DNA from: Herbaspirillum sp. GW103 | GTDB taxonomy: Bacteria; Pseudomonadota; Gammaproteobacteria; Burkholderiales; Burkholderiaceae_D | Length of the DNA: 64,000 nt | Assembly: GCF_000261365.1 (NCBI RefSeq) | Contig: NZ_AJVC01000004.1 | Span: 868,001 to 932,000 of the forward strand | Reading direction: 5' to 3' | Part shown: positions 11,762-27,001 of the stretch, piece after piece | Position numbering within the stretch: the stretch's first letter is position 1 | Layout of the letters: every line of letters begins with the position of its first letter | Notes under the pieces: generated by a model | Seen by the model: only the letters and a program-made list of their open reading frames with translations | What the model was told of the DNA's origin: nothing | Databases searched by the model: none | Translations under genes and position numbers: made by a program

Positions 11762-11852
11762 GACCACTTTCTCCAATTGACTCAAGCCTGTTGCGATTGA
11801 TGAGGAATAAGGCAGGGTGCCGGGATGTGCCCCGGCACCCTGGCTGTCCTGT

Positions 11853-13223
11853 TCAGAGGGAGGCCAGACCGGCGCCGAAGATGTCCAGTCCCTTGAACAT
11901 CAGCGAGCGCGGGATGGTCAGCGAGGGCATCACGCGCATGACGTTGGTGTAACGACCGCAAGGAATCATCAGCACACCGTGACCGACTACGTAATCCATC
12001 AGCTTGCCCAGCTTCTCGCGCGAAAGTGGCTCGCGGGTTTCGCGGTTCTCGACCAGCTCGATGCCGATCATCAGGCCACGTCCACGCACCTCGCCCACCC
12101 ACGGGCTGTTGAAGCTGCGGATGCGTTCCTGTGCTTCCAGGCCCAGCGTGTGGGCACGGTTGACCAGGTCCAGACGCGGATCCTGCAGGATGCTGATGTT
12201 GGTCAGCGCCACTGCAGCCGAGATCGAGTTGGCCGCGAAGGTATTGGGCTGCGAACCATCGGGAATCTTGGCGGCCAGGTCCGAGCGCATGACCAGGCCG
12301 GCCATGGGCATGTCGCCGCCGATACCCTTGCCGAAGGTCAGCATGTCGGGCTTGACGCCCGAGTGCTCCACCGCCCACATCTTGCCGGTGCGACCGGCCC
12401 CGGCCTGCACTTCATCAACGATGAGCAGCGCGCCGCTGCGGTCGCAGGCTTTGCGCAGAAGTTGCAGGAACTCCGGCGAGGGCGGCACATAGCCGCCCTC
12501 ACCCTGCACCGGTTCGACGATTACGGCGGCCACGTCATCGGCTGCGGTATAGGGGGTGTTGAGCAGGTAGTCGACGTACTCACCGGCAATCTGCTCGGCG
12601 CTCTTGTGGCTGGTATCGAAGGGGAAGCGATAAGCGTAGGGATACGGCGCATGGATCACGCCGCCCATGAAGGGACCAAAGCCCTTGCGGTACGCTGTGC
12701 CGGTGGTGAGCGCGTTGGAAGCATTCCAGATACCGTGATAGCCACCGTGGAAGGCGATGATCTGGTGCCGGCCAGTGACGCGCCTGGCGAACTTGACGGC
12801 CGCTTCCAGTGCATCGCTGCCGCCCTGGGTGAAGAAGGTGATGCAATCACCGCGCAATCCCTCGGGCATGATCTCCGACATCTTGGCGGCCAGCTCGGTG
12901 CGCCTGGAGCTGTTGACTTCCATGGAGTGCATCAGCGATTCGGACTGCTTGCGGATGGCCTCGACTACTCGCGGATTGCAGCGTCCCACGCTGCTCACGC
13001 CCACGCCGGCGGAAAGATCGATGAAGGTATTGCCGTCCGGGTCCTTGAAGGTCACGCCGAATGCTTGGTCCATCGCAATGGGCATGCGGCCACCGCCACG
13101 CGCCATCGATTCGGTCCGCGCCGAGAGTTCCAGTGCGGCCGCCGTCTTGGGGCCAGGATAGGTGGAAGACACCATCTTGGGAGCGTCAGCAAAGTTGAGC
13201 GACTCCAGTTCTGCTTCAATCAT
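11853..13223 (-). CDS. class III PLP-dependent aminotransferase
   Basis: 456 residues, fold type I, class III (omega-transaminase, GABA transaminase or dialkylglycine decarboxylase group). Visible landmarks are the PLP phosphate region near FTQGGSDALEAAVKFAR (131-147), HGGYHG (159-164), the Asp pairing with the PLP ring nitrogen at D270 in LIVDEVQAGAGRTG, and the Schiff-base lysine K299 in FGKGIGGD. It transfers an amino group from an amine or omega-amino acid to a 2-oxo acid, giving an aldehyde or ketone. AAGG lies upstream of the ATG. It is the first gene of a five-gene unit whose other members are envelope proteins, an unusual pairing. A conserved promoter element lies 143-162 bases upstream. 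Substrate unknown. Confidence 0.9.
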   Translation of the reverse strand: MIEAELESLNFADAPKMVSSTYPGPKTAAALELSARTESMARGGGRMPIAMDQAFGVTFKDPDGNTFIDLSAGVGVSSVGRCNPRVVEAIRKQSESLMHSMEVNSSRRTELAAKMSEIMPEGLRGDCITFFTQGGSDALEAAVKFARRVTGRHQIIAFHGGYHGIWNASNALTTGTAYRKGFGPFMGGVIHAPYPYAYRFPFDTSHKSAEQIAGEYVDYLLNTPYTAADDVAAVIVEPVQGEGGYVPPSPEFLQLLRKACDRSGALLIVDEVQAGAGRTGKMWAVEHSGVKPDMLTFGKGIGGDMPMAGLVMRSDLAAKIPDGSQPNTFAANSISAAVALTNISILQDPRLDLVNRAHTLGLEAQERIRSFNSPWVGEVRGRGLMIGIELVENRETREPLSREKLGKLMDYVVGHGVLMIPCGRYTNVMRVMPSLTIPRSLMFKGLDIFGAGLASL

Positions 13224-13461: not shown

Positions 13462-13487
13462 AAAAAAATGGCGGCCGAAGCCGCCAT
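13462..13487 (-). terminator. intrinsic terminator of the ten-gene catabolic operon
   Basis: ATGGCGGC and GCCGCCAT form an 8-bp stem with a 4-nt loop. On the minus strand the hairpin is followed by a run of T (seven A on the plus strand, 13462-13468). It lies about 110 bp past the stop of the chemoreceptor gene, the last gene of the operon. Confidence 0.88.
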
Positions 13488-13595
13488 CAAGGGTGCTGCC
13501 AGGCACCGGAACACACAACGATGTGCAGGAAGACGTAACGAATCGCGCACCGGAAAACGTACAGAGACTACGCCCGAAAAAAGAAAGAGAAATCG

Positions 13596-15203
13596 CTACC
13601 TCAGCGGCAAGGCCAGCGACGGAGGTGATTGCGATGGCAGATGCAGCTGTGCGCCCTCCGCAATCCTGAACGTCGACACCGTCTCCAGCAGGTTGCCCGC
13701 CTGCTGGCGCAGACTCTCGCTGGCTGCGGCGCTCTGCTCGACCAGGGCCGCATTCTGTTGCAGGGCATCGTCCAGTTGCCGGATGGCGCCCTCGACTTCG
13801 GCGATGTCGCCACTCTGGGCCAGGCTGGCCTGGCTGATCTGGACCACGATGTCCGAGACGCTGCGCACCGCCTGCACGATCTCTTCCATGGTCTGACCGG
13901 CGCGGTCCACCAGACGGGCGCCGGTCTGGATGCGCGCTACCGATTCATGGATCAGGGCATTGGTCTCACGCGCGGCTAGTGAACTGCGCTGGGCCAGCGC
14001 GCGCACCTCGGTAGCCACCACCGCAAAGCCCCGGCCCTGTTCACCGGCGCGCGCCGCCTCCACCGCCGCATTGAGGGCCAGAATATTGGTCTGGAAGGCG
14101 ATGCCGTCGATCGTGCCGACGATCTCCGAAATACGCTGCGAGCTGTCCTCGATGCCACGCATGGTCTGCACCACCTCCCGCACCGCCTGCCCGCCCTGCA
14201 TCGCCACCGTACTGGCCTGCTGCGCGGTGCTGCTGGCCTGGCTTGCGTCTTCGGCATTCTTCTGCACCGTGGCACTGAGCTCATTCATGGTGGCCGCCGT
14301 CTCCTCCAGCGCCGCGGCCTGGGCCTCTGTACGAGTCGAGAGATCGGCATTGCCGGCAGCGATCTGCACGCTGGCCGTGGCCACATGCTCGGCCTCGCGC
14401 CGCACCCCGGCCACGATGTTCACCAGGGCCTGCTGCATACGCTGCATCGCCAGCAGCAACTGGCTGATCTCGTCACGGCCACTGACGGTGATCGCCTGAT
14501 CAAGCGCTCCCTCGGCAATGCGGTGCGCCGCCTCTACTGCATGCCGCAGCGGTCCGGCGATGCCCCCGATCAACAGCCGTGCCAGCAGGAGGGTACCCAG
14601 CAGAGCTGCCACGCTCACCGTCAGCAACGCGTGGCGGGCAGAGATGAAGGCATGCTGGCCATCGATGACCGAGACTGCCGATTCCTGCGCCACCGAATCG
14701 CTGATGAACTTGAGGATGCCAGCCATCTTCTCATAGGGGGCCGCACTGTCTGCGGCCAGCATCAAGGCCTCGGCTGACTGGCCGGCGGCGGCCAGCGCCA
14801 CCGCCTTCTCGGCCAGGGCACGATAGGCTTGCCAGTTGGTCAGCAGCTGGCGGCTGGTAGCACGCTCGTCGTCATTGCTGGAAAAATCGACCAGTATCTT
14901 CAGGTACTTCTCGGCATAGGCCAGTCCTTCGCGGCGTGCCCGGGCGGCCGCCTTACCGCCGCTGCCGTCATCGGCCAGCAGCGACAGTGTCACGCCCATG
15001 CGGTACTGCGCCATCCCGATGCGGATGCCCGAGACCGATTCCATGGCCGGCACGTTGATGTTGCCCAACTGCTCGACCTGGCGGTTGATCTGACTCATGC
15101 GACCGTACGCAAACAGGGCCATGCCAACCAGCATCAGCAACAACAGCATGAAGGCCAGCCGCAGCCGGGCCGCGATGCTCAATCCAGCGAGCGCCTGCCT
15201 CAT
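13596..15203 (-). CDS. methyl-accepting chemotaxis protein (4-helix-bundle sensor)
   Basis: 535 residues. TM1 spans about 13-33, followed by a helical periplasmic domain of about 155 residues (4HB_MCP type), TM2 about 190-212, then HAMP and the cytoplasmic signalling rod. The hairpin tip carries the near-invariant [28 protein letters not shown] gives a strong ribosome binding site. It sits 27 bp after the aldehyde dehydrogenase gene and before a terminator, so it is the last gene of the catabolic operon. It probably senses the operon's substrate or an intermediate. No C-terminal CheR-binding pentapeptide of the NWETF type is seen. Confidence 0.92.
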
Positions 15204-15230
15204 CGTTACTCCCCCTTTGGTGGTGGATCT

Positions 15231-16673
15231 TCAGCCGGGTACGTGGCTGATCTGGCTGATCATCTTGGTGACCAGGAAGCTGTCGAAACCCTCGGTGCCG
15301 CCTTCGCTGCCGAAGCCGCTTTCGCCGACGCCACCGAAGGGCAGTTCAGGGTGCGCCATGCCGGAATGGTTGATGTTGACCATGCCTGCCTGCAGTGCAC
15401 TGGCCACCTCGTGCGCCGTGGCCAGCGACTGCGTGAACACATAGGAGGCCAGGCCCAGCGGCAGGGCATTGGCCATGGCAATGGCTTGCGCGGTCTGCTC
15501 GAAGGGTGTGACGGCTGCCACCGGACCAAACGGCTCCTCCTGCATCACCCTGGCTGTCGGCGACACGTCAGCGATCAGCGTGGGGGCATAGAAATGGCCG
15601 CGCTGGCCGATGCGTGCGCCGCCCGTCACAAGTTGCGCGCCCCGGACCATGGCGTCCTCTATCAGGTCATGCACCGCCTCGAAGCGGCGACCATGAATCA
15701 ACGGGCCCATTTGTACGCCGACCTCCAGCCCGGAACCGACCTTGACCTGCTGCAAGGCATCAGCCAGCGCCACCACGAAGCGGTCGTAGATGCGCTTGTG
15801 AACGAAAAAGCGCGACGGCGAGACGCACACCTGACCGGCGTTACGAATCTTCATTCGCGCCAGCAGACGCGCCGCCGCATCCACCTCGGCATCGTCGAAC
15901 ACCAGTACCGGCGCATGCCCGCCCAGCTCCATGCTCATGCGCTTCATATGCAGTGCCGCCTGGGCGGCCAACTGGCTGCCCACGGGAATGGAGCCTGTGA
16001 AGGAGATGGTACGCACCAGAGGCGAGGCAATGAGCTGCTCCGAGATCTCCGAGGACACGCCCCAGACGATATTGAAGACGCCCGCCGGCAACCCGGCATC
16101 ATGGAACAGCCGGGCCATCAGTACGATGGCCGCCGGTGACTCCGACGGTCCCTTCAGGACCACAGTGCAACCTGCCGCCATGGCCGCCGCCACCTTCTTC
16201 ATAGCCTGGCCGAACGGGAAATTCCACGGGCTGATGGCAGCACACACGCCCACCGGCTCTCGCACCACCATCTGCCGCACCTCCGGATGGCGTGCGCCGA
16301 CCACGCGGCCATACAGGCGGCGGCCTTCCTCGGCGTGCCAGTCCAGGTGTTCGGCGGCATTGAGGATCTCGGCCACGGCGTCGGCCAGGGGCTTGCCATT
16401 ATCCATGGTAATGGCCGGTGCCATCGCCTGGGCGCGTTCACGCGCCAGCGTGGCGGCGCGGCGCAAAATGTCGGAACGTTCCAGCGGCGACACCTGGCGC
16501 CATTGGCCGAAGGCCGCGTGGGCCGCTTGAATGGCGTCCTCGATATCAACTGCCTCGGCCCAGGGCAATCGCCCCAGCACCTCGCCGGTGGCAGGGTCGC
16601 GCACCTCCTGGTAGCGGCGGCCGTCGAGGCCATGGAAACGTCCGTTGATGTAGAGCTGCAGATCGGGATACAT
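15231..16673 (-). CDS. NAD(P)-dependent aldehyde dehydrogenase (succinate-semialdehyde dehydrogenase-like)
   Basis: 480 residues of the ALDH superfamily. Catalytic Cys283 lies in [12 protein letters not shown], the general base Glu249 in MELGGHAP, Asn151 in SPWNFPF and the cofactor-binding Lys174 in VVLKGPSE; all are present. The sequence resembles the GabD branch, but the specificity residues cannot be judged. It oxidises an aldehyde to the acid, probably in the catabolic operon, after the flavin hydroxylase gene (73-bp gap). AAGGTG precedes the ATG. Confidence 0.9.
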
Positions 16674-16746
16674 GGATCACCTTGAAGAGGAAAAGACCGA
16701 TACGCACAGGACGTACCGGCAAATACACAGGCAGGAAGCAATGGCG

Positions 16747-18357
16747 TCAGCTGGCCACGCGATCGAGGAAAAGGCGCATCACCGCAGGCGCATCGTCGGC
16801 CCGGCCGGCAGCGGCGATGAAGCGGTCGGGACGCAGCAGGACCCAGTCCACGCCCTTTTCCTTGAACCAGGCGTTGAGTTTGTTTTCATGGTCCTGGATC
16901 ACCACGCCGGAACTGCACGGCGGTGCACCGCGTGCCCCGCTGCGCGAGCGTACGCCCTGCAGGTAATTGCAGCCGAACGCTTCCATGCGGCGACGCAGAC
17001 CGGCATCCAAGGTCGGCCCGGCCAGCACATCGCAGCGCCAGCTCAAGAGCGTGAAGCGACTACCGCAGATGTCATCCAGACGCAGCACTTCGCCGCTGCC
17101 GGTTTCCACCAGCGACTGCAGGAACATGCGTCCAACCAGGTCCTCACGATTGCGGGCGTCGCCCTGCATCACGGCCTGACTGCTGAAGCTGGGCATGGGC
17201 TTGAATTTCATCTGCAGCACGTAGTCGCGTACGCGCGGGATATCCTTGATAGCGAGGAAGAAGCGGTCACGGCACCAGGCTAGCAGACGATTCTTCTGCG
17301 ACAGCACGGCACCGAACAAGTCGGCCAGATCGATCATGGCCTTGACGTGGGCATGGCGCTCGTCGTGGTAGCTGGCCAGCAGTTCCGGCTTCATCCGCCC
17401 CTCCAGTACCCAGGCCAGTTTCCAGGCCAGGTTGAAGGCGTCGCGCAGTCCTGCATTCAAGCCCTGCCCGATCCAGGGCGGCGTGATATGGGCGGCGTCA
17501 CCGGCCAGGCAGATCCGGCCGCAGACCAGCGAAGCGGCTACCCGCGAGTTATGCGTGTAAACACGCGCGCGAATGATATTGAGCGCATCGACATCGGCCA
17601 CGTGCTCGCGCAACAGTTCGCGCACCTTGGTCGGCGCCAGCATCTGCTCGCCATCCTCGCCGGGAAACAGCATGAACTCCCAGCGCCGCACGCCGTAGGG
17701 CAGCGCCAGGCATACGTAGGGACGCTGCGGCTCGCAATGCAGGGCAGTATAGGGCGCATCCAGAGGATCGCTGTCGCACTCGATCACCACCCATTTGGCG
17801 GGATGAGTCTTGCCCTCGTAGGGCAGCTTGAGAATCTTTTCACGCACCGTGCTGCGCCCGCCATCGCAACCCACTGCGTACTGCGCGAGCAGCTGGCTCT
17901 GCACACCCTGGGCATCGAGGAGAGTGGCCAGCACGCCCTGCTCGTGCTGCACCAGATCCAGCAGTTCCACCCCGGAGCGCAGCGCCACATGCGGGAACCG
18001 CAGCAAGCCCTGGCGCAGCGTGGCCTCGCCCAGTGGTTGCGAGAACAGGTTGCGGCGATACCAGCCGAATTCCCGCGTACTAGGCTGGATCTCGGCGAAG
18101 CAGCGGCGCCGGGCGGTGTACATGCGCATGGGGACGTTCTGGATCACGTCGCGCACGATGGCGTCGGCCATGCCAGCGGACTGGAAGGTGCGCAGCGCTT
18201 CATCATCGATGCCCACCGCACGCGGATAGTCGAGCACGTCAAGGTTGCGTTCGATGACGAGCGTGGAGATGCCATAGGTGCCCAGCAGATTGGCCAGCGT
18301 CACACCGACCGGCCCGGCGCCGATGATGAGCACCTGGGTCTGTGGCGCAGCGCTCAT
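16747..18357 (-). CDS. FAD-dependent aromatic hydroxylase, MhpA-like
   Basis: 536 residues of the class A flavoprotein monooxygenases (PHBH fold). The N-terminal FAD motif IIGAGPVG starts near residue 10, the DG motif CDGGRSTVRE is in the middle and the second FAD motif ICLAGDAAHITPPWIGQGLN follows. The closest type by eye is the MhpA branch, which hydroxylates phenolic acids with NAD(P)H and O2. Start: the ATG at 18357 overlaps the NIPSNAP stop (ATGA) and begins directly before the FAD motif. A longer open frame to 18606 is excluded because it runs through NIPSNAP in another frame. In this operon it would hydroxylate an aromatic or enolic ring before cleavage. Confidence 0.88.
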   Translation of the reverse strand: MSAAPQTQVLIIGAGPVGVTLANLLGTYGISTLVIERNLDVLDYPRAVGIDDEALRTFQSAGMADAIVRDVIQNVPMRMYTARRRCFAEIQPSTREFGWYRRNLFSQPLGEATLRQGLLRFPHVALRSGVELLDLVQHEQGVLATLLDAQGVQSQLLAQYAVGCDGGRSTVREKILKLPYEGKTHPAKWVVIECDSDPLDAPYTALHCEPQRPYVCLALPYGVRRWEFMLFPGEDGEQMLAPTKVRELLREHVADVDALNIIRARVYTHNSRVAASLVCGRICLAGDAAHITPPWIGQGLNAGLRDAFNLAWKLAWVLEGRMKPELLASYHDERHAHVKAMIDLADLFGAVLSQKNRLLAWCRDRFFLAIKDIPRVRDYVLQMKFKPMPSFSSQAVMQGDARNREDLVGRMFLQSLVETGSGEVLRLDDICGSRFTLLSWRCDVLAGPTLDAGLRRRMEAFGCNYLQGVRSRSGARGAPPCSSGVVIQDHENKLNAWFKEKGVDWVLLRPDRFIAAAGRADDAPAVMRLFLDRVAS

Positions 18358-18677
18358 GCGGCACTCCCGACAGCCGGTTCCGGCGCACTGATGAGCAGGC
18401 GGCTCTCCTGCTGCACCAGCAGGCCGCGCACCTGCTTGCGGAATTCGGCAAAGGCAGGATCGGCCAACAGTGCCGTGCGGCGACGGGCGCGCTCCTCCAG
18501 GCTGTCGAAGGCCCAGTGGTACACCAGTTGGTTGAGGTCGCCGCTCTCGGGAATCATCATCGCCACCAGATGCCCCAAGAGGCGCACCTGATGGACGCGG
18601 CCACATTCGTTGTAGATGCGCACGTACTCGCGCACGCCGCCCGGCACCATGGTGTAGGTGCGCAGTTCATGGATCAT
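18354..18677 (-). CDS. NIPSNAP family protein
   Basis: 107 residues of dimeric alpha/beta-barrel (ferredoxin-like) type. The N-terminus MIHELRTYTMVPGGVREYV and the later VYHWAFDSLEERARRR are typical of NIPSNAP. The gene overlaps both neighbours by four bases (ATGA at each end), so it is translationally coupled to the hydrolase before it and the hydroxylase after it. GGAGAGG precedes the ATG. Family members recur in catabolic operons, but a reaction is rarely assigned. A role as a small isomerase or monooxygenase-like accessory is possible, not shown. Confidence 0.85.
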   Translation of the reverse strand: MIHELRTYTMVPGGVREYVRIYNECGRVHQVRLLGHLVAMMIPESGDLNQLVYHWAFDSLEERARRRTALLADPAFAEFRKQVRGLLVQQESRLLISAPEPAVGSAA

Positions 18678-19543
18678 GGTGTCCTCTCCGCCCTGGTCGT
18701 TCTTTCTTCCAGCAGGAAGGGCCGTACCGCGTCGGCGAAGGCTTCCGGCTGGTCGTCGTGGATGTAGTGGCCGGCATCGGCAATGGTGCAGGTGCGGATG
18801 CGCGGATTGAGCTGGCGCATCTCGGCGGCGATCTCGGCGGACAGGTAGTCCGAGCGTTCGCCGCGCACCACCAGCGTGGGGCAGCTCAGCGCCATAATGT
18901 GCGGACGCAGGTCGACCACGCGGGCGATGTCGGGCATCAGGCGCGTGGCGCTGATGCCGACATGGTCGTAGCGCCACGTATAGCCGCCCTCTGCTGTGGG
19001 CTTGAGCATGTTGTCCAGGCGCTGCTGGCGCGCTTCTTCGGTCACGCTGGGACGCAGCGCGCGCATGAAATCGCTAGCCTCCTCCCAGTTGGCGAAATGG
19101 CTGGGCGTGGTGGCCAGTTCACGGCGGATGCGGGTGGCACCGGCGCTGCTCTCGAAGGCGCCGGGACCGGCATCCTCGATGATGAGACGACGTACACGTC
19201 CCCGGTGCCGCGCGGCATAGACGATGGCATTGATGCCGCCCATGGAGTGCCCGAGCAGGTCGAAGCGGTGCAGTCCCAGCCGCGCCACCAGCGCTTCAAT
19301 ATCGGCCACGTAGGCATCGGTGTAGTAGTTGCAGCCCGGGTCCCAGTCGCTCTGGCCGCGCCCGCGCTGGTCCAATGCGATGCAGCGGTAGCCGACCGGC
19401 AGACGCTGCACCAGGTCGGCAAATGTCTCTCCATAGCCGCGGATGCCGTGCAGGAGCAGTAGAGGGAAATCCTGTGCATCGCCCCATTCGGTCACGTGGA
19501 ACTGCAAACCCGAGAGGGTCAGCCAATAGTCTCTGTGCTGCAT
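18674..19543 (-). CDS. alpha/beta hydrolase
   Basis: 289 residues from the ATG at 19543, chosen for GGAG upstream; an ATG ten codons earlier has none. The oxyanion-hole segment LLLHGIRG is near 29-36, the nucleophile Ser100 in GHSMGG, the probable acid Asp232 and His259 in DAGHYIHDD complete the triad. This is the profile of C-C bond hydrolases of meta-cleavage products as well as of esterases and lactonases. Given the flavin hydroxylase and VOC protein in the same operon, a ring-cleavage-product hydrolase is plausible, but an esterase cannot be excluded. Confidence 0.88.
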   Translation of the reverse strand: MQHRDYWLTLSGLQFHVTEWGDAQDFPLLLLHGIRGYGETFADLVQRLPVGYRCIALDQRGRGQSDWDPGCNYYTDAYVADIEALVARLGLHRFDLLGHSMGGINAIVYAARHRGRVRRLIIEDAGPGAFESSAGATRIRRELATTPSHFANWEEASDFMRALRPSVTEEARQQRLDNMLKPTAEGGYTWRYDHVGISATRLMPDIARVVDLRPHIMALSCPTLVVRGERSDYLSAEIAAEMRQLNPRIRTCTIADAGHYIHDDQPEAFADAVRPFLLEERTTRAERTP

Positions 19544-19575
19544 GATGGTCTCCGTGATCTCTGCGTGGCACAACC

Positions 19576-20178
19576 TCAGACCAGGCCGTCGAGCCCCTTG
19601 ACCTCGGATGCCTTGAGGCCACCCAGGCGGGCATTGAGGCGGCCACGCGTAGCGAAGGCCCAGATCAGCACCACTTCATCGCGGTTGGGACCATCGTTGA
19701 ACTGGGCGCTGACGGTGTCGTAATGGGACCGCACATACAGTGCATCCTTGTGCGCCAGCGGTATATCGATGATGGTGCCGGGTCCGCCGCGCTTGCCGGT
19801 CGAAGGGACCCAGGACTTGCCACCGCCGATACCGTCGCGTACGGGATTGGCAGCCGGGTTGGTCAGCAACGCATTACCGTGTTCGTATTCACCATCCACC
19901 CCCACCAGGCAAGCCTTGCCATAGCTCTCGATGGGCTGGCCCTGGGCCGCATCGCGGATGCGGCGCGCGAATTCCTGGCCCAGCAGCGGCGAAGGTTCGA
20001 TCCAAGCGGACAGGTCCTCGACATACTTGCCAGCGAAAGGATTGTGGAGGCAGGCGGCAATGACGATCTTGCGCAGCGGTGCGCCATCGGCCTCCTGGCC
20101 GGTCTCACCGGCCAGGATGTCTTCGATTTGGAGGAACCACTTGCGGATATGGAAGTTGGCGAAATTGGGAGTCTTCAT
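19576..20178 (-). CDS. DUF1185 'amino acid synthesis' family protein
   Basis: 200 residues. The start at 20178 has AAGGA upstream; the longer open frame is rejected. Stretches such as KIVIAACLHNPFAGKYVEDL, YGKACLVGVDGEYEHGNALL and GKSWVPSTGKRG fit the DUF1185 family, a small alpha/beta fold named from weak similarity and without a proven reaction. It is found here between the hydrolase and VOC genes of a catabolic operon. No signal peptide is present, so it is cytosolic. Function unknown. Confidence 0.8.
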   Translation of the reverse strand: MKTPNFANFHIRKWFLQIEDILAGETGQEADGAPLRKIVIAACLHNPFAGKYVEDLSAWIEPSPLLGQEFARRIRDAAQGQPIESYGKACLVGVDGEYEHGNALLTNPAANPVRDGIGGGKSWVPSTGKRGGPGTIIDIPLAHKDALYVRSHYDTVSAQFNDGPNRDEVVLIWAFATRGRLNARLGGLKASEVKGLDGLV

Positions 20179-20245
20179 GGAACGTCCTTGGAAGGAGGCA
20201 ATACGGTGCAAGGGAATAAAGGAAATAAAGGAGACTCGCGCCGCC

Positions 20246-20749
20246 TTACAGCGGATCGAGATGGAAGCTGTCGCTGGGGGCGTTGTACTGGCCCAGCAGG
20301 CGCTTGCCTTCCTCGTCATCGTGCGCGGTCTCGAAGAAGAATTCGAAGCGGTGACCGTCGGGGTCATGGAAATAGATGCCATAGCCGACTTTGTGATCGG
20401 TGATCTTGAAGATCTCGATGCCCTTGGCCAGCAACATGCCGTAGAGGCGACGGAATTCCTCCATGTCGCCCTCCACCTCCAGGCCGTAGTGCTGCATGTT
20501 GACCTCGCCACGTACGGCCTGACCGGGTTCGTCCACGCGGATGAGCGCGATGTCGTGGTGCTTCTTGCCGAAGGACAGGAAGACCCAGCGCTCGGCGCGG
20601 GCCGTGACCGTCATGCCCAGCACGTCTTCATACCAGGGTGCCGAAGCGTGCGGGTCCCTGACGAACAGGGCCAGGTGAGTGCGGCGGATGCGCGGCCTGA
20701 TCGCCGCAGCGGTGTGCGCAGCAGCGGCGGTGGTGGCGGTTGCGGACAT
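20246..20749 (-). CDS. VOC superfamily protein (single-domain dioxygenase/glyoxalase fold)
   Basis: 167 residues: one vicinal-oxygen-chelate unit with two beta-alpha-beta-beta-beta modules. Probable metal ligands are His25 (THLALF), His87 (MQHYGLEV) and Glu136 (DPDGHRFEF), the 2-His-1-Glu set of the type I extradiol dioxygenase and glyoxalase families. AGGAGG precedes the ATG. It is shorter than classic two-domain extradiol dioxygenases (about 300 residues), so ring cleavage is possible but isomerase or lyase activity is equally consistent. The operon context of hydroxylase plus C-C-hydrolase-like protein favours ring cleavage. Confidence 0.85.
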   Translation of the reverse strand: MSATATTAAAAHTAAAIRPRIRRTHLALFVRDPHASAPWYEDVLGMTVTARAERWVFLSFGKKHHDIALIRVDEPGQAVRGEVNMQHYGLEVEGDMEEFRRLYGMLLAKGIEIFKITDHKVGYGIYFHDPDGHRFEFFFETAHDDEEGKRLLGQYNAPSDSFHLDPL

Positions 20750-20764
20750 GAGACCCTCCTGTGT

Positions 20765-21802
20765 CTAGTCGATCGATTGCGGATGGGCATGCACCGGGGC
20801 CACGAAGGGCGTCCACGCCACCGAGGTGATTTCGCTGAAGTCGCGCCATTCCTTGTACCAACTGCGTCCGCCATCGGTGGAGCGCAAGAGATAACCATAC
20901 TTGGTGCCGGCAAAGAGCAGTTGCGGGTCCGATGGATGGCCACCGAACGCCCACACCGTGGAATTGGGTGCGGTGTGCAGCACACTGAGTTGCCAGCTCT
21001 GGCCGCGATCCTCGGAGCGATAGATGCGGGTGCGTGTACCGGGCGTACCATCGCCGATGGCCAGCAGCAGTTGATTGCCCTGCGGATCCAGCGCCTGGAT
21101 GGTGCGGGTGTAGTACATGCCGTCGAAGCGCTCCTTGGAGGCCTTGGCAGTGAAGCTGGCGGCATCATCACTGCTCTCGCAGACCGAATTGACGGTCACC
21201 ACCACATGCTTGACCGGTGCATCGGCGGTGGCCGGCAGCACGGTGATGGCATGGATGTCGGAATTGTTGATGCCACGGCCCGGTGTGTCGATGCGGGTCC
21301 AACTATCGCCTTCGTCATTGCTGCGCCAGGCACCGCCCTCTTCCACACCGAACCAGACTTCCTGCGGTGCATCGGCGCGCACGAAGATGGTCAGGATGCG
21401 CGGCTTGTGCACGCCCGAGCAGAATTCCGGCAGCTCCACATCCAGTTGTTGCCACGACAGGCCACCGTCGCGTGAACGGAACATGCAAGCGCGCGACGGT
21501 GCGCCGGTACCGGCAAAGACCAGTTTGGGGTTGCTGGGGCTGAAGGCGATTGACCAGACGGTCTGATCATCGGCGGGCGAGGCAATGCGCTTGAAGTGCG
21601 CACCGCCATCGGTGCTCAGGCAGATGCCGACATCGGCACCGGCCAGTACCCGTGCGGGGTCCGACGGATCGACAGCCAGGCTACGTACCACGCCGTCGAA
21701 TTCGATGGCTTCCTTCAGGCCCAGGCGGTGCCAGGTCGCACCATTGTCGACACTGCGCACGATGCCTTGGCCGGCGGTGCCGACCAGGATGGTTCCTTGC
21801 AT
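20765..21802 (-). CDS. BNR/Asp-box beta-propeller protein (cytosolic)
   Basis: 345 residues with repeated Asp-box motifs in propeller blades: SVDNGATWHRL (17-27), STDGGAHF, SRDGGLSW, SNDEGDSW, SEDRGQSW and STDGGRSW. Such proteins are often named glycosyl hydrolase or sialidase, but no sialidase arginine triad or catalytic set is evident, so I read it as a propeller of unknown activity. No signal peptide is seen. AGAGGA precedes the ATG at 21802; the much longer open frame to 22240 overlaps the SDR gene and is rejected. It lies 15 bp before the VOC gene. Together with the exported YCF48-like protein it is the second propeller in this regulon. Confidence 0.8.
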   Translation of the reverse strand: MQGTILVGTAGQGIVRSVDNGATWHRLGLKEAIEFDGVVRSLAVDPSDPARVLAGADVGICLSTDGGAHFKRIASPADDQTVWSIAFSPSNPKLVFAGTGAPSRACMFRSRDGGLSWQQLDVELPEFCSGVHKPRILTIFVRADAPQEVWFGVEEGGAWRSNDEGDSWTRIDTPGRGINNSDIHAITVLPATADAPVKHVVVTVNSVCESSDDAASFTAKASKERFDGMYYTRTIQALDPQGNQLLLAIGDGTPGTRTRIYRSEDRGQSWQLSVLHTAPNSTVWAFGGHPSDPQLLFAGTKYGYLLRSTDGGRSWYKEWRDFSEITSVAWTPFVAPVHAHPQSID

Positions 21803-21834
21803 GATGAGTTCCTCTTCAGTCTCTCGGGTTCGAG

Positions 21835-22629
21835 TCAGATGTAGATGCCACGGGTGATGCCGCCATCCACCGCAATGGATTCGCCGGTGATGGCCGCCGC
21901 ACGCGGGGAAGCCAGGAACAGTACGACGTCGGCGATCTCCTCCACCTGCAGCACGCGCCGGATCGGCGTGGCCTTGGCATAGTTCTGCTCGACCTGCTCG
22001 GGAGTCAGGCCCTGCAGCTTGGCTTCCTTCTCGTACAGCTCGTGGATGTGCGGGGTCTCCACCACGCCGGGATGGATCACGTTGACAGTGATGCCGTCCG
22101 GTCCGAGCTGATCCGACAGGGTCTTCGTCAGATGGCAGATAGCCACGTTGCGCATGCCGGACAACTGCTTGCTGCCACGGCCGGTAAGCCCGCCGATATT
22201 GATGATGCGACCGTACCCACCGCTGCGCATGTGTGCACAAGCGGCTTTGGCAAAGCGCATGTAGCCGACCACCTTGATGTTGATGTCTTCCAGCAGTCCC
22301 TCGGCACTGGCGTGCTGGATTTCCGAACGCACCAGGCCACCCGGATGGGCCGCGCCATTGACCAGGATATCGATACGGCCGAAGTGCCGGGCAGCGTGCG
22401 CCACGGCAGCCTCCACCTGGACGGTATTGCTCACGTCGGCGGCCACGGCGATGACTTCGGCGCCGGTGCTCTGGCTCAGCTCGCTGGCCACTTCTTCCAG
22501 CTTGTCCTTGCTGCGCGCCACGATGGCCACGCGCACCCCTTCGCGCGCCAGCGCTTCGGCTACCGCCCGTCCGATGCCCAGGCTGCCGCCGGTGACGATG
22601 GCGGCCTTGCCTTGCAGATTCAGTTCCAT
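21835..22629 (-). CDS. SDR-fold protein lacking the canonical catalytic Ser-Tyr-Lys
   Basis: 264 residues with a clear Rossmann fold: TGGSLGIG at 13-20, NGAA at 91-94 in place of NNAG, Asn117 of the active-site tetrad, and the C-terminal HPGVVETP. Where classical SDRs have Ser, then YxxxK, alignment by eye gives Gly146, Ser157 and Asn161 (SGMRN) before AICHLTKTLS. The usual acid/base residues are therefore missing. It may bind nucleotide and act by another mechanism or as a non-catalytic partner. AAGGAG precedes the ATG. It lies 53 bp after the ThDP enzyme gene in the operon. Confidence 0.85.
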   Translation of the reverse strand: MELNLQGKAAIVTGGSLGIGRAVAEALAREGVRVAIVARSKDKLEEVASELSQSTGAEVIAVAADVSNTVQVEAAVAHAARHFGRIDILVNGAAHPGGLVRSEIQHASAEGLLEDINIKVVGYMRFAKAACAHMRSGGYGRIINIGGLTGRGSKQLSGMRNVAICHLTKTLSDQLGPDGITVNVIHPGVVETPHIHELYEKEAKLQGLTPEQVEQNYAKATPIRRVLQVEEIADVVLFLASPRAAAITGESIAVDGGITRGIYI

Positions 22630-22682
22630 GCTTGCTCCTTGTTCAGTGCCGTGTATGACATTACGTCGCTAGGGAAAATGAT

Positions 22683-24239
22683 TTACAGCGCCATCTCGAT
22701 GAGGGTCGGTCCATTAGCAGCGAAGGCAGTCTGCAACTGCTGCTGCAATTGCTGCGCAGTTTCGGCACGTACGGCCGGCACGCCATAGGACTGCGCCAAC
22801 CCGACCCAGTCGATGCGCGGGTGATCCAGCGCGGTCATCTGCGCGGCGCGCTCGCCCAGGGAAGCGCCATCGCGGCGCAGTTCGTTGCGCAGGATGGCGT
22901 ACTGGTGATTGGCGGCGATCAGCACCACCACCCTGGCGTTCTCATGGGCCAGCGACCACAGGGTCTGGATGGTGTACTGCGTGCTGCCGTCCGAGAGCAG
23001 GCCGACCACGGTGCGCTCGGGGCAGGCCACCGCCGCGCCCAGCGCCACCGGCAGGCCCTGGCCGATGGCGCCGCCGGTATTGGTGAGCACCGTATGCGCA
23101 CGGGCCGCATCGGAGACCGCATAGAAGGGATAGCCGCAGGTACCGCCCTCGACTGAGACAATGGCTTGCTCCGGCAGCTCGCGCGCCAGGACGGAGGCAA
23201 TCTTCTGCGGCGTCAACTCGCCCTCCGGCAGCGGCGGCAAGACATGCTGCGGCATCACGTAGGCGGGCGCACCGAGCGCATCGGCCAGTTTCTCCACGCG
23301 CACAGCCGCAGGACGGCCAGGCAGGCTGATGGTCAGCAGGCGCTCCGGTGTCACCAGCGCGCTGGGATGGCCGACATAGCCAAAGTAGGTGATCGGTGGG
23401 AGCGCGCCTACCAGCACTACCAGGTCTGCCTCGTCGAGGATCTTGCGGGCCGGTTCGGGGAAATACGGCAAGCGATCAAAGGAGGGCAAACCCTGGCCGC
23501 GCTCGGCGCGGGCCGGGAAGGTTTCAGCGTAGACGCCGCATCCAATGTGCGCCGCGATGCGCGCCACGGCACGCTGGGCGCGAGATCCCAGGCCGCTGTC
23601 CTCACCTCCCCCGCCCAGCAGGAACACCACGCGCTGCGCACGTTGGAGAAGCGCCAGCGCCTGGGCGGGCTGGTAGTCATCGGCGGGTCCGGTGTCGTCT
23701 TCGGTGGCAGCAGCCGGAGGGGCCGCCTCCATGGCGGCGAACTGGAAATCCGCCGGGAAGATCAGCGTGCTGCCCTGCCCGCCCGCCGCCAGGCTCTGAC
23801 GTACGGAGGCGGCGGCGGCGGGGGCGATGTCCTCGGTGCCGGTGATGCGGTGGACCCAGCCCGAGACCGGATGTGCCAGCGATTCGATATCCGAGGTCAG
23901 CGGTGCGTCATAAGGCAGGTGCCAGCTGGTGTGGTCACCGATGATGTTGACAATGGGCGTGCGGGCGCGGCGGGCATTGTGCAGGTTGGCGATGCCATTG
24001 GCAAAGCCCGGTCCCAGGTGCAGCAGCGTGCTGGCCGGACGACCCAGCATGCGACCATAGCCATCTGCGGCGCCGGTGCAGACGTTTTCCTGCAGCGCTA
24101 CCACACAACGCAGCTTGGGGAAACTTTCCAGTCCTCGGACCAGGTCCAGTTCGGTGGTACCGGGATTGGCGAAACAGGTGTCCACGCCTTGGTCCAGCAG
24201 ACCGGCCCATAAGGCCTGCGCTCCAGTGTATCGGGTCAT
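22683..24239 (-). CDS. thiamine-diphosphate-dependent enzyme (acetolactate synthase / benzoylformate decarboxylase type)
   Basis: 518 residues with the three-domain layout of ThDP decarboxylases and lyases. The activating glutamate is Glu51 in LQENVCTGAADGYGR. The ThDP/Mg motif near 416-444 starts with SDGS rather than GDGS and ends with Asn444 in IAANHQYAIL. It is shorter than true biosynthetic acetolactate synthases and has no small subunit nearby, so a catabolic 2-oxo acid decarboxylase or C-C lyase is more likely. AAAGGA precedes the ATG. It is the first gene of the ten-gene operon, divergent from the IclR regulator. Substrate unknown. Confidence 0.87.
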   Translation of the reverse strand: MTRYTGAQALWAGLLDQGVDTCFANPGTTELDLVRGLESFPKLRCVVALQENVCTGAADGYGRMLGRPASTLLHLGPGFANGIANLHNARRARTPIVNIIGDHTSWHLPYDAPLTSDIESLAHPVSGWVHRITGTEDIAPAAAASVRQSLAAGGQGSTLIFPADFQFAAMEAAPPAAATEDDTGPADDYQPAQALALLQRAQRVVFLLGGGGEDSGLGSRAQRAVARIAAHIGCGVYAETFPARAERGQGLPSFDRLPYFPEPARKILDEADLVVLVGALPPITYFGYVGHPSALVTPERLLTISLPGRPAAVRVEKLADALGAPAYVMPQHVLPPLPEGELTPQKIASVLARELPEQAIVSVEGGTCGYPFYAVSDAARAHTVLTNTGGAIGQGLPVALGAAVACPERTVVGLLSDGSTQYTIQTLWSLAHENARVVVLIAANHQYAILRNELRRDGASLGERAAQMTALDHPRIDWVGLAQSYGVPAVRAETAQQLQQQLQTAFAANGPTLIEMAL

Positions 24240-24367
24240 TTCTTTTCCTTTGCCGCCAGCGGCCAGCGCCGCGCTCGGGCGCTTCTAAAGAATCGGGCAG
24301 ACCAGCCGGGCCACGGCAGCAGGCTGGTTTGCGGCATCGCAATCAAGTCAAAGAAAATCGTGTATTC

Positions 24368-24391
24368 TCGTATAGACGAAATATGTACATA
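24368..24391. promoter_or_regulatory. two inverted repeats in the IclR/ThDP divergent promoter region
   Basis: TCGT-ATAG-ACGA (24368-24379) and the perfect 10-bp palindrome TATGTACATA (24382-24391) lie side by side in an A/T-rich island of the 318-bp divergent gap (24240-24557). They are candidate operators for the neighbouring IclR regulator, which as a dimer would bind palindromes. No direct support beyond symmetry and position. Confidence 0.4.
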
Positions 24392-24458
24392 ATTATTCTC
24401 ACCAGATCGATTATTTATTGCTTGATTTTGAATATAAGAGATTTGTGCAATATATTTG

Positions 24459-24473
24459 AGCCCAAATCGGCAA
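24459..24473 (-). promoter_or_regulatory. regulatory element, copy C (degenerate)
   Basis: Minus strand TTGCCGATTTGGGCT matches TTGCTCATTTGGGCT at 13 of 15 positions. A good -10, TATATT (24436-24431), lies exactly 22 nt after it. It points to the ten-gene operon that starts at 24239. Confidence 0.55.
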
Positions 24474-24557
24474 TTGATGACCGCGGCGCGTTCCCGGCGC
24501 GCGAGTGGACGTACAATGCCTGCCACCGGGCCGCCATTGCCCTTACTGCCCTAGACC

Positions 24558-25292
24558 ATGAATAGCCTGAGCCGCATGCTGGACGTCCTGACCCTGTTCA
24601 AGCCCAGTCAACCCGTGATCGACATCGACATCATCTGTGCCCAGTTGGGCTATACCCCGGCCAGCGCCTATCGGTATGTGCGCGAGCTGGGCCATGCCGG
24701 CCTGCTGGTAAAGATGCCGCGAGGTTATGCCGTAGGACCGAAGGTGATCGAACTGGATCGCCACATGACGCAGTTCGATCCCCTGCTCTCAGCCAGCCGC
24801 GACATCGTCGGTGACCTGGTGACGCAGACCGGGCTGGAACTGTTGATCAGTGAGCTGGTTGGATCGACCGTGATCAACATCCTGCAGGAGTCGGGCAACA
24901 ATGATGCGCGTCTGAACTATGGGCGCGGGACCCCCATGGATCTGTTCCATAGCGCTACGGCGCGGGTGATCCTGGCTTATCTGCTGCCGCGCCAGTTGCG
25001 CAAGCATTTCGATGGAGCCAGTGCCGAGGAACTGCAGCTGGTGGGGAGCAACTGGAAGGAATTCTCGAAGGTGATGCTGAAGATTCGCAAGGACGGCTAT
25101 TGCATCAGCGAAGGTGAATTGGACCCCGGCAAGACTGGCATCGCAGCACCCATCTTCGACGAGAGGCAGCGCATCCTGGGCAGCATCACGCTGGCCGGCA
25201 ATACCGAGCGGGTCAATGCCTTCAACCGTGACTTCCTCTCGGGACTGATCACCGATGCGGCGCGCAAGATCACGGCGCGGATTGCGGGCTGA
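24558..25292 (+). CDS. IclR family transcriptional regulator
   Basis: 244 residues. The N-terminal winged helix-turn-helix (about 5-62: LSRMLDVLTLF, then GYTPASAYRYVRELGHAGLL) is followed by the IclR effector-binding domain (about 75-243), with GTPMDLFHSATARVILAYL and the KTGIAAPIFD segment near the ligand pocket. It is transcribed away from the ThDP-led operon and probably controls it in response to a pathway metabolite. The ATG has only a weak ribosome binding site. A terminator for the gene is not obvious in the 196 bp that follow. Confidence 0.9.
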   Translation: MNSLSRMLDVLTLFKPSQPVIDIDIICAQLGYTPASAYRYVRELGHAGLLVKMPRGYAVGPKVIELDRHMTQFDPLLSASRDIVGDLVTQTGLELLISELVGSTVINILQESGNNDARLNYGRGTPMDLFHSATARVILAYLLPRQLRKHFDGASAEELQLVGSNWKEFSKVMLKIRKDGYCISEGELDPGKTGIAAPIFDERQRILGSITLAGNTERVNAFNRDFLSGLITDAARKITARIAG

Positions 25293-25488: not shown

Positions 25489-26466
25489 TTACTGAAACAC
25501 CTTCTGCCCCACCCTGCGCGCCGTCTGCGACGGCAACTCCCCAAAAAGCTCCTGGTAATCCTCTGCAAAGTGGCTCAGATGGAAGAAGCCCCAGCGCGAC
25601 GCGATGTCGCCGATCGAGGATTCCTGGTTGGTGGTGGACAAAAGTTCGCGCCGCACGCCGTTCAGCCGCACGCACCGCAGGTAATTCAAGGGCGTGGTCT
25701 CGGCCACCGTCTGGAAACTGTTCTGCACCGTGCGGCGGCTCACCTGCAGGCGCTGGCACACCTCGAAGATGCTCGGCACATTGGCCGCATCCACGATGGC
25801 CTGGCGATGCAGCTTCTCCACAATGTAACTGCGAGTGGTACTCATCTGGCGGACGGGATCGCAATCCGGTGCCGACAACAAACCCAGCAACTCACCCAGC
25901 AATGAGGACTCCAGCGCCTGCTCACGTTGCTGCGCGTGTGCATCGGCCTGCCATTGTCCGTCATCAATCTGCAGCATCGAATGCGAGAAGATGTTGAGCA
26001 GCCGTTCGCGGCAAGCGCGCAATCCCTTGGGAGGTACCTTGATGACCGGCTGCCGGAGCAAGGCACTGATGCGATCGGGATCTGGCATCTGGTGCAGGTG
26101 CTCCTCAAACAGGTCACGATCAAAGGTCAGCGACAAGAGATCGGTGTCCATCGGCATGTGGAACATGAATTCCTCGCCGCCCTGCAAAAACAAGATGCTC
26201 TTGTCATCCGCTTCACGCCCCTGCACGTGCGCCGCGCCCGGTGCAGCAATCGGGAAGGCAAAGCAGATCTGGTCCCGCGGCGCCTCGCCATGCTGAACCA
26301 CACGCTTGTTGATGCGCTCGCGAAAAGCGTGGCAGCGCCGCGTCGATAACTGCATCAGCGAGCTCTCCAGCTTGCCGGCGGAAATCTGTGCATACGTCTG
26401 CTTCCACGCGCCAATGGCGGCAGCGTGCACATGCACATCCTGAAAACGGTGAATGCTTTGCAACAT
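25489..26466 (-). CDS. AraC family transcriptional regulator (EutR-like)
   Basis: 325 residues from the ATG at 26466, chosen for GGAGAGAG upstream; an open frame 18 codons longer is less likely. The N-terminal ligand-sensing domain spans about 1-215, and the C-terminal double helix-turn-helix about 220-320. The stretch CQRLQVSRRTVQNSFQTVAE followed by TPLNYLRCVRLNGVRREL is of the type seen in the ethanolamine regulator EutR and related activators of amine/aldehyde genes. It lies divergent from an aldehyde dehydrogenase and between copies C and B of the shared promoter element, making it the best candidate for the protein that binds it. Confidence 0.88.
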   Translation of the reverse strand: MLQSIHRFQDVHVHAAAIGAWKQTYAQISAGKLESSLMQLSTRRCHAFRERINKRVVQHGEAPRDQICFAFPIAAPGAAHVQGREADDKSILFLQGGEEFMFHMPMDTDLLSLTFDRDLFEEHLHQMPDPDRISALLRQPVIKVPPKGLRACRERLLNIFSHSMLQIDDGQWQADAHAQQREQALESSLLGELLGLLSAPDCDPVRQMSTTRSYIVEKLHRQAIVDAANVPSIFEVCQRLQVSRRTVQNSFQTVAETTPLNYLRCVRLNGVRRELLSTTNQESSIGDIASRWGFFHLSHFAEDYQELFGELPSQTARRVGQKVFQ

Positions 26467-26540
26467 GGTCTCTCTCCAAGTGAGCCGCGATTGCTCCCGC
26501 GAACGTGGCTCTGTCTCCATGCATTTAACGTGCCTGCATT

Positions 26541-26877: not shown

Positions 26878-27001
26878 CTGCGGCGCCCTGCTCTCTATAC
26901 ATTCTGGCTCCATGCGGGCCCGTTTGCGTAACTTCCAGCCAGCGCATGGTGCAAGTGGCCGCATCCCGTATCCCTCGACAACCATCACAACGAGAATGAG
27001 C

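Follow-up and report, generated by a model that had tools for sequence, protein, structure and literature searches.

A ten-gene operon of Herbaspirillum sp. GW103 with a predicted extradiol ring-cleavage pathway

Which reactions are encoded by a Herbaspirillum operon that joins a flavin-dependent hydroxylase to a ThDP enzyme, a beta-propeller and a DUF1185 protein, and which substrate do they suit? The ten genes lie in a window of 64,000 nucleotides, the whole stretch of DNA analyzed. The original prediction described a catabolic operon without a match to a textbook pathway. This still holds: no described pathway with this gene set, and no published report of the set or its substrate, was found in the open-access literature searched. 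The operon is real and catabolic, and we infer part of its mechanism. With slightly better than even confidence, it encodes an inducible aromatic catabolic pathway, in which an extradiol (meta) cleavage would be continued by reductive and decarboxylative steps.

Operon layout and regulation

The operon of Herbaspirillum sp. GW103 covers positions 13596-24239, all on the minus strand, with a divergent IclR gene and a downstream hairpin with a U run. The features are:

13467-13488, minus strand: terminator-like hairpin with U run (site scan and folding)
13596-15203, minus strand: methyl-accepting chemotaxis protein (Pfam 4HB_MCP_1, HAMP, MCPsignal)
15231-16673, minus strand: aldehyde dehydrogenase (ALDH), succinate-semialdehyde-dehydrogenase-like (Aldedh, E 7e-158)
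16747-18357, minus strand: group A flavin monooxygenase (FMO), MhpA-like aromatic hydroxylase (FAD_binding_3, E 2e-71)
18354-18677, minus strand: NIPSNAP-family small protein (PF07978, 72 bits)
18674-19543, minus strand: alpha/beta hydrolase with Ser100/Asp232/His259 (Pfam and PDB matches)
19576-20178, minus strand: DUF1185/AA_synth protein (PF06684), TgnF/HcdD family (Pfam)
20246-20749, minus strand: predicted single-domain VOC type I extradiol dioxygenase (Glyoxalase (VOC) domain and active-site alignment)
20765-21802, minus strand: BNR/sortilin-type beta-propeller (Pfam)
21835-22629, minus strand: SDR-fold protein without Ser-Tyr-Lys (Pfam; closest PDB entry 6jh7)
22683-24239, minus strand: ThDP-dependent enzyme, benzoylformate-decarboxylase-like (Pfam; NCBIfam PRK07586, named acetolactate synthase large subunit)
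24406-24480: conserved intergenic block, candidate regulator and promoter site (alignment of four Herbaspirillum genomes)
24558-25292, plus strand: divergent IclR-family regulator (Pfam)
25489-26460, minus strand: associated AraC-family regulator (domain scan and genus comparison)

All ten open reading frames are intact and start with ATG. The intergenic gaps are 53, 32, 15, 67, 32, -4, -4, 73 and 27 bp, which bears out the predicted one-strand run with gaps of at most 73 bp or, in two cases, 4-bp overlaps. Pfam confirmed the earlier domain calls for all ten proteins: ThDP, SDR, Sortilin/BNR propeller, Glyoxalase (VOC), PF06684 (DUF1185/AA_synth), alpha/beta hydrolase, NIPSNAP, FAD_binding_3, Aldedh and MCP. 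Three other Herbaspirillum genomes share the gene order, and distant taxa preserve much of it, so the operon is not a chance run.

Of the proposed borders, one regulated promoter and one terminator, the hairpin with its U run is present. It is somewhat more stable than shuffled sequences (13488-13467, z -2.0, folding); terminator-like sites in the scanned region number 9 versus 8.9 in shuffles, i.e. they are not in excess. The single regulated promoter stays conjectural, because the promoter scan listed no sigma-70-like site on the minus strand in 24240-24557. About 70 bp of the divergent intergenic region are almost invariant in the alignment of all four Herbaspirillum genomes. The IclR-family regulator, with homologues in 38 of 80 related loci, likely controls the operon and would sense a pathway compound.

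Enzymes of the predicted pathway

The FMO scores 783 bits against the sub-model NF004831 of the PRK06183 hydroxylases (MhpA superfamily; cut-off 546). The sub-models 1-1, 1-2 and 1-4 remain under their cut-offs, and 1-3 is just exceeded (392.5 versus 390 bits). Four checked FAD-motif positions are invariant in 58/58 sequences. The enzyme would hydroxylate a phenolic ring in the ortho position. In the VOC protein, the residues H25, H65, H87, H119, Y126 and E136 are invariant in 79/79 sequences. In catechol 2,3-dioxygenase 3hpv, all six have counterparts of identical residue type within the C-terminal (catalytic) domain; for 1mpy, where the alignment begins after the first, the other five do. 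We take the six to be the H-H-E metal triad plus the active-site His, His and Tyr. All 79 sequences thus carry the residues tested for a type I (VOC) extradiol dioxygenase. The profile also matches the 'Glyoxalase' 9u42 (E 6e-13; 1mpy, 4e-11), which lacks an equivalent of H65, and Fos thiol transferases (E 3e-8 or weaker); a match to a RecA fusion was dismissed as chance. Two components of the route are thus evident at the sequence level: the FMO, and a one-domain VOC protein that retains the full extradiol catalytic set. Pfam, the curated FMO model and the VOC residues support the original prediction of a catabolic operon with this enzyme pair. Ring cleavage by the predicted dioxygenase is well supported, and would yield an unsaturated 2-oxo acid.

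The earlier SDR assignment is right for the fold and missed the loss of the classical catalytic residues. G147, S157 and N161 occupy the classical Ser/Tyr/Lys sites, invariant in 99/99 sequences, while S-Y-K is found in 27 of the 29 further SDRs inspected from this genome. A classical SDR dehydrogenase, with its catalytic Ser and YxxxK, was rejected on this basis. The closest PDB entry is 6jh7 (AerF from Microcystis, E 2.9e-61), which is also the best fold match, at 34% identity, and carries the same G/S/N set at the aligned positions. AerF is part of aeruginosin biosynthesis and catalyzes a conjugate reduction by 1,4-hydride addition. Since the nearest structure shares the Gly/Ser/Asn set, the protein is predicted to be an NADPH-dependent double-bond (conjugate) reductase of the AerF type. 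In the pathway, this reductase would use NADPH to reduce a conjugated double bond.

The ThDP enzyme exceeds the Pfam cut-offs with its N- and C-terminal domains, the middle domain (29.2 bits) being just under 30.4. It reaches 690 bits against NF005760 (cut-off 363) and stays below the benzoylformate decarboxylase model NF005485 (194 versus 493 bits). The best PDB match is 4mpp (E 3.9e-37). Glu51 and His74 are invariant in 74/74 sequences; His291, by eye the second histidine of benzoylformate decarboxylase, is kept in only 32 of them. A decarboxylation of the 2-oxo acid to an aldehyde may be expected. The aldehyde would be oxidized by the operon ALDH, which remains under the succinate-semialdehyde dehydrogenase cut-off (TIGR01780, 498.8 versus 646.35 bits). 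To our knowledge, the names of both enzymes stem from families with mostly uncharacterized members.

The alpha/beta hydrolase had been regarded as the third, C-C-hydrolase-like member of a meta-cleavage trio. This role is not supported, since the curated scores are far too low for a meta-cleavage hydrolase (HsaD, 49.7 versus 400 bits; BphD, 27.6 versus 462 bits). Ser, Asp and His are invariant in 77/77 sequences, and 3kxp (E 4e-21) matches the protein better than 1iun and 2d0d do (E 1.8e-11), both of which are meta-cleavage hydrolases. The entry 3kxp, an alpha-(N-acetylaminomethylene)succinate hydrolase, is the third PDB match after 3bwx and 7c4d. The DUF1185 protein scores 225.8 bits against PF06684 (gathering cut-off 27), with PDB matches to 2qtp and 3byq. 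Its relatives TgnF and HcdD come from catabolic clusters for heterocycles. The propeller model (pLDDT 90.2) is almost all beta, and its nearest fold is 3b7f, a putative BNR glycosyl hydrolase (TM 0.74). Hydrolase, DUF1185 protein and propeller may handle the remaining part of the molecule, probably a heterocycle, enamide or lactone, in analogy to hydrolase, TgnF and SSADH of trigonelline degradation.

This sequence of steps is the order that we infer. With less than even probability, it amounts to a widespread, so far undescribed route from extradiol fission over conjugate hydride transfer, by an SDR fold lacking the catalytic residues of SDRs, to ThDP-dependent decarboxylation, with propeller and DUF1185 protein as new ring or enamide enzymes. 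The operon could assign functions to these two families, and an SDR fold that lacks the usual catalytic residues would gain a defined part in catabolism. Given the conservation of the active sites, each step should be testable in E. coli.

Distribution and associated genes

The operon is present in 4 of 34 Herbaspirillum genomes, which may share the unit by descent. Three further genes accompany it:

11853-13223, minus strand: class III aminotransferase, associated (genus co-occurrence)
26924-28456, plus strand: ALDH2, phenylacetaldehyde-dehydrogenase-like, associated (open frame from 26741)
28665-30122, minus strand: APC-family amino acid/amine permease, associated (Pfam)

In the three other operon-bearing genomes, homologues were found for the aminotransferase (E 1e-150 or better, 96-98% identity), ALDH2 (E 1e-200 or better, 93-95%) and the permease (E 1e-120 or better, 92-95%). 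The 30 genomes without the operon hold none for the aminotransferase and permease, and a single 66% homologue of ALDH2. ALDH2 scores 655 bits against NF045736 (cut-off 800). An 84% aminotransferase homologue adjoins the operon in Paracidovorax wautersii; the aminotransferase subfamily differs between lineages. The unit probably extends to these three genes, which the original prediction missed. Their tracking of the operon across the genus hints at an amine, and they would probably import and deaminate an amine precursor.

The core of the operon recurs in many genera of Beta-, Gamma- and Alphaproteobacteria and in Streptomyces, a spread that the original prediction missed. The substrate is therefore likely to be a common one. 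From 191 related loci 80 were kept; DUF1185 served as search query and is present in 80/80 by construction. Homologues of all eight proteins (ThDP, SDR, BNR, VOC, DUF1185, hydrolase, FMO and ALDH) occur in 40 of the 80 loci. Another 20 have the six core genes and no FMO homologue, so this hydroxylase is not universal. The propeller is found in 78 loci, NIPSNAP in 33 and a chemoreceptor homologue in only three. By this comparison the chemoreceptor is a local addition; in strain GW103 it may guide cells to a pathway compound. Four loci (L070, L073, L086, whose sequence ends just upstream, and L095) combine propeller and DUF1185 without VOC, ThDP or FMO, three of them also with the hydrolase. Propeller and DUF1185 protein may therefore form a separate reaction. 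Among the loci, 9 from Gammaproteobacteria and 17 from Alphaproteobacteria contain an MhpD-type hydratase homologue; two representatives scanned were both under the cut-offs.

Candidate substrates and related pathways

The ThDP enzyme might instead act as a carbon-carbon lyase on a lignin-type or ephedrine-type alpha-hydroxyketone or diketone, with FMO and VOC protein acting on the aromatic product. Its benzoylformate-decarboxylase likeness and the adjoining SDR and ALDH would fit. This is highly improbable: an SDR without classical alcohol dehydrogenase residues in 99/99 sequences is unlikely to make the ketone. A flavonoid-type A-ring cleavage is also quite doubtful. The fde operon for naringenin, from Herbaspirillum seropedicae of the same genus, and the ifc cluster for isoflavones in Variovorax use an FMO (FdeE, IfcA) followed by a glyoxalase-family dioxygenase (FdeC, IfcB) (PMC11069340, PMC8552027). 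However, the Rieske electron carrier FdeD (PMC8552027) and the cupins IfcD1/D2 (PMC11069340) have no counterpart among the ten proteins, and ThDP enzyme, AerF-like SDR, propeller and DUF1185 protein set the present operon apart from fde; for fde, this comparison covers the genes named in the two cited papers. The ifc cluster shares an alpha/beta hydrolase gene, whose disruption left daidzein degradation unaffected, and the main text on it mentions neither DUF1185 nor BNR (PMC11069340).

A special case of the extradiol explanation concerns bicyclic N-heteroaromatics resembling kynurenate, xanthurenate or hydroxyquinolines, and is rather unlikely. The benzene ring would be hydroxylated and cleaved, and the 2-oxobutenoate chain reduced, decarboxylated and oxidized to a propionate chain. 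The pyridine ring would be opened to an enamide, from which the alpha/beta hydrolase would release succinic semialdehyde. Extradiol enzyme, conjugate-reductase-like SDR, ThDP decarboxylase and ALDH parallel each step of the general kynurenate degradation scheme. In addition, the hydrolase is close to the enamide hydrolase 3kxp, and the ALDH is SSADH-like. In the tgn cluster of Acinetobacter baylyi, the hydrolase yields succinic semialdehyde. TgnF, an HcdD homologue, is reported to assist TgnE in the oxidation of this aldehyde, a step of trigonelline degradation. We know of no extradiol, ThDP or propeller gene in that cluster. The hcd cluster for 7-hydroxycoumarin (Pseudomonas mandelii 7HK4) shares hydroxylase, dioxygenase and the DUF1185-type HcdD; it differs in an ADH-type ene-reductase, a cupin and an FMN reductase, and the text describing it does not mention BNR. 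Against an N-heteroaromatic, no kynurenate-specific ring hydroxylase was identified, no gene cluster for the scheme was found in the open-access literature searched, and the amine-side genes are left unexplained.

These genes, the class III aminotransferase, phenylacetaldehyde-dehydrogenase-like ALDH2 and APC permease that track the operon in the genus, would suit a monocyclic phenolic amine or its acid, a substrate of similarly low probability. They would provide a hydroxyphenyl-alkanoate for hydroxylation, cleavage and hydrolysis in a classical meta pathway, with ThDP enzyme, SDR and ALDH taking the C5 piece. The hydrolase is, however, far under the meta-cleavage cut-offs, and no aldolase was seen among the representative neighbor genes scanned, a minority of the neighbors of the 80 loci. 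The mhp pathway for 3-(3-hydroxyphenyl)propionate shares an FMO of the MhpA superfamily. It employs a LigB-type dioxygenase, a hydratase and an aldolase, all three absent from the ten operon proteins by Pfam. In favor of a phenolic amine, hydratase homologues of the MhpD type are present in other operon versions, and five (26-34%) lie elsewhere in the GW103 genome.

Gene order, control region and distribution

The predicted ten-gene operon was borne out. Every gene is intact and on the minus strand, with gaps of 53, 32, 15, 67, 32, -4, -4, 73 and 27 bp, and Pfam agrees with the predicted domain name of each of the ten proteins. The operon and its associated features are:

11853-13223, minus strand: aminotransferase
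13596-24239, minus strand: operon of ThDP enzyme, SDR-fold protein, BNR propeller, VOC protein, DUF1185 protein, alpha/beta hydrolase, NIPSNAP protein, MhpA-like flavin monooxygenase (FMO), SSADH-like aldehyde dehydrogenase (ALDH) and chemoreceptor
24406-24480: intergenic block
24558-25292, plus strand: IclR regulator
26924-28456, plus strand: separate aldehyde dehydrogenase (ALDH2)
28665-30122, minus strand: APC permease

A 9-bp hairpin followed by a U run lies downstream of the operon. The proposal of a single regulated promoter holds in part: a divergent IclR gene is present upstream (Pfam), but the promoter itself was not located, a sigma-70 scan of the operon-side strand of the intergenic region finding none. 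The intergenic block of about 70 bp, with ATTGC...GCAAT ends, is near-invariant in an alignment of four of four Herbaspirillum genomes. Judged by sequence, it is the leading candidate site at which regulator and polymerase bind, and a candidate IclR operator. In composition the operon (GC 0.652) resembles 21 genes around it (GC 0.636), and thus gives no sign of recent foreign origin.

FMO matches at E 1e-40 or better occur in 8 of 34 genus genomes, with at least 88% identity in only four (own included) and at most 42% in the other four. The ten genes, together with the IclR, AraC, ALDH2 and aminotransferase genes, are in conserved order in the other three of the four operon-bearing genomes, which may share the unit by descent. 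Named-species genomes scanned with the DUF1185 protein yielded 191 related stretches, the best 80 of which were kept. Genes were counted from one tblastn piece (E 1e-8, more than half coverage). Among these best 80 of 191 loci, homologues over half the protein length were found for DUF1185 in 80 (by construction, as the search query), BNR in 78, SDR in 77, VOC in 74, hydrolase in 73, ThDP in 70, ALDH in 65, FMO in 54, IclR in 38, NIPSNAP in 33 and the chemoreceptor in 3; for ALDH and SDR, orthologues and paralogues are indistinguishable, and absences may reflect contig ends or the 10-kb flank limit. The full set of ThDP, SDR, BNR, VOC, DUF1185, hydrolase, FMO and ALDH is present in 40 of the best 80 of 191. 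Hosts among them include Variovorax, Achromobacter, Pigmentiphaga, Burkholderia, Pandoraea, Pseudomonas, Novosphingobium, Sphingobium, Nitrincola and Streptomyces. A plasmid of B. pyrrocinia is annotated in the order acetolactate synthase, SDR, sialidase family, VOC, amino acid synthesis family, alpha/beta hydrolase, hydroxylase, NIPSNAP and semialdehyde dehydrogenase, with an adjoining IclR gene. This recurrence and the plasmid gene order argue for the operon core as a stable unit. The chemoreceptor is, by sequence comparison, not a member of this core.

Another 20 of the best 80 of 191 loci, alphaproteobacterial by titles or genera, carry the six core genes without an FMO homologue. Eleven of these 20, among them L097, L101 and L111, encode close to the core a protein of one family, the scanned representative of which is Acyl-CoA_dh_2. 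This family presumably includes two-component phenol hydroxylases, and its member may stand in for FMO in these eleven loci. DUF1185 neighbourhoods in ten stretches of other genera and in one operon-less genus genome gave no substrate hint; besides DUF1185 itself, the only homologues in them were weak ones for FMO or SDR and moderate ones for ALDH. Locus L041 carries a DUF1185 gene at 9583-10209 (62% identity to that of the operon) with no other operon genes in about 20 kb.

Probable ring hydroxylation and extradiol cleavage

The gene set is very probably a real, widely conserved operon for aromatic catabolism with extradiol cleavage. Residue conservation was read from alignments covering 84 loci with no more than three homologues each, with paralogues and close relatives counted and the window's own sequence included in n. 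Sequences less than 40% identical to the window's own protein were excluded (VOC 2/80, SDR 4/102, FMO 1/58, hydrolase 2/78, ThDP 0/73, ALDH 69/128). The VOC protein has H25, H65, H87, H119, Y126 and E136 in 79/79 sequences. In a profile search, C-terminal domains of catechol 2,3-dioxygenases align with it, 3hpv being identical at all six positions and 1mpy at all five covered. These positions we take to be the catalytic residues of extradiol dioxygenases. One of the 11 other VOC-family loci of the genome has the same six residues. The top match of the profile search was a RecA fusion, a chance repeat match. The entry 9u42, titled 'Glyoxalase' (E 6e-13), outranks 1mpy (4e-11) and has no H65 equivalent; below these, Fos enzymes score no better than 3e-8. 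A role as glyoxalase or fosfomycin enzyme was rejected, since the listed Fos models stay under cut-off and the extradiol residue set is complete.

FMO scores 783 against a curated NCBIfam cut-off of 546, and the four FAD-motif positions checked are invariant in 58/58 sequences. With the VOC residues, this makes hydroxylation followed by extradiol cleavage the best-supported part of the route. From the shared operon we infer that FMO and the VOC protein act on one molecule.

Proposed reduction and decarboxylation, and comparison with known pathways

The SDR-fold protein begins with a nucleotide-binding motif of the TGGxxGIG type (T13, G14 and G18 in 99/99 sequences, G20 in 79/99). The classical Ser/Tyr/Lys sites are occupied by G/S/N in 99/99, a second, diverged sphingomonad copy included, and G158, R160, D115 and K119 are likewise invariant; a smaller alignment of ten sequences was used alongside. 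As a control, 30 loci were examined of 53 SDR matches in the genome, the operon's own among them; the 29 others have S-Y-K (27), YMK (one) or SSK (one). Among solved structures, 6jh7 is closest in sequence (E 2.9e-61; next 1.5e-47) and shares G, S and N at these sites. In fold, the predicted model (pLDDT 83.8; loop 149-154 below 50) best matches AerF of Microcystis, represented by 6jh7 and its sister entries, of which one contains NADPH and 4-hydroxyphenylpyruvate. AerF, on which no paper was found in the open-access literature searched, presumably catalyzes a 1,4-hydride addition to a conjugated dienone. The SDR-fold protein would by likeness reduce an unsaturated 2-oxo acid, the product type of extradiol cleavage. 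The ThDP enzyme, followed by the SSADH-like ALDH, would act after this reduction. Closest to the ThDP enzyme in the PDB are benzoylformate decarboxylases; Glu51 and His74 are kept in 74/74 sequences, His291 in only 32/74. The name 'acetolactate synthase' is no more than the label of its family. The detailed route, with its reductive-decarboxylative branch, is proposed with moderate confidence.

The alpha/beta hydrolase keeps Ser, Asp and His in 77/77 sequences. A classical mhp or BphD meta-cleavage role was rejected because its scores are far below the curated BphD and HsaD models, and the original prediction of a C-C-hydrolase-like third member of a meta-cleavage trio is not supported by them. 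In the PDB, the entries titled 'alpha/beta hydrolase' (3bwx) and 'putative esterase' (7c4d) come closest to it, followed by the alpha-(N-acetylaminomethylene)succinate hydrolase 3kxp. Relatives of 2-oxopent-4-enoate hydratase occur in nine gammaproteobacterial and 17 alphaproteobacterial loci; one hydratase-like representative scanned per group was under the curated cut-offs. The genome itself has five hydratase homologues (26-34%) elsewhere.

The first known pathways weighed, for naringenin (fde) and isoflavones (ifc), were rejected, as no Rieske or cupin gene is among the ten; fde goes unmentioned in one paper (PMC4440368). For 4-hydroxypyridine, a set of FMO, dioxygenase and hydrolase is reported whose dioxygenase is of the amidohydrolase type and not a VOC protein (PMC7356986). 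A pathway for a kynurenate-type bicyclic substrate, one of several rival candidates, would be a special case of the hydroxylation, extradiol cleavage and reduction proposed here. The open-access literature searched held no published match to the gene set, though a subscription paper could exist, and that on B. pyrrocinia LWK2 gave no lead on it.

Accessory proteins and likely substrate side

In its combination of hydrolase, DUF1185 and SSADH-like ALDH the operon resembles the tgn set, whose hydrolase presumably has the same fold as the operon's. The DUF1185-type protein HcdD is reported from a 7-hydroxycoumarin cluster; TgnF, a homologue of HcdD, is said there to stimulate succinic semialdehyde oxidation by TgnE, an effect that could not be demonstrated with HcdD itself (PMC7913881). 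A 2010 structure paper proposed amino-acid metabolism from context (PMC2954203). The propeller model is confident (pLDDT 90.2) and has its closest match in 3b7f, described as a putative BNR glycosyl hydrolase. Propeller and DUF1185 occur without VOC, ThDP and FMO in four loci, L070, L073 (Achromobacter), L086 and L095 (MAG), three of which have the hydrolase; L086 is truncated just upstream by the end of its contig. These proteins may thus form a sub-module of their own. Neighbours of the pair in L070 are GST and GntR genes as well as TctC-family relatives.

The aminotransferase and the APC permease are present in 4/4 operon-bearing and 0/30 operon-less genus genomes at the cut-offs used. ALDH2 follows the same pattern, except for one 66% homologue among the operon-less genomes. 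Loci of Roseateles, Paracidovorax, Pseudomonas and Burkholderia have relatives of permease, ALDH2 or an aminotransferase next to the operon; the three aminotransferases scanned belong to different subfamilies. The association suggests, and does not prove, that an amine is imported, deaminated and oxidised ahead of ring attack. An AraC regulator (EutR/AndR-like, under cut-offs), the phenylacetaldehyde-dehydrogenase-like ALDH2 and the APC permease form a second unit at 25489-30122. After the aminotransferase, a minus-strand block (5131-11785) encodes a YCF48-like BNR protein, an MMPL/RND transporter, DUF1302 and DUF1329. Loci of Roseateles, Variovorax and Paracidovorax, too, have a DUF1329 or transporter relative close to the operon, and the block may therefore export a toxic intermediate.
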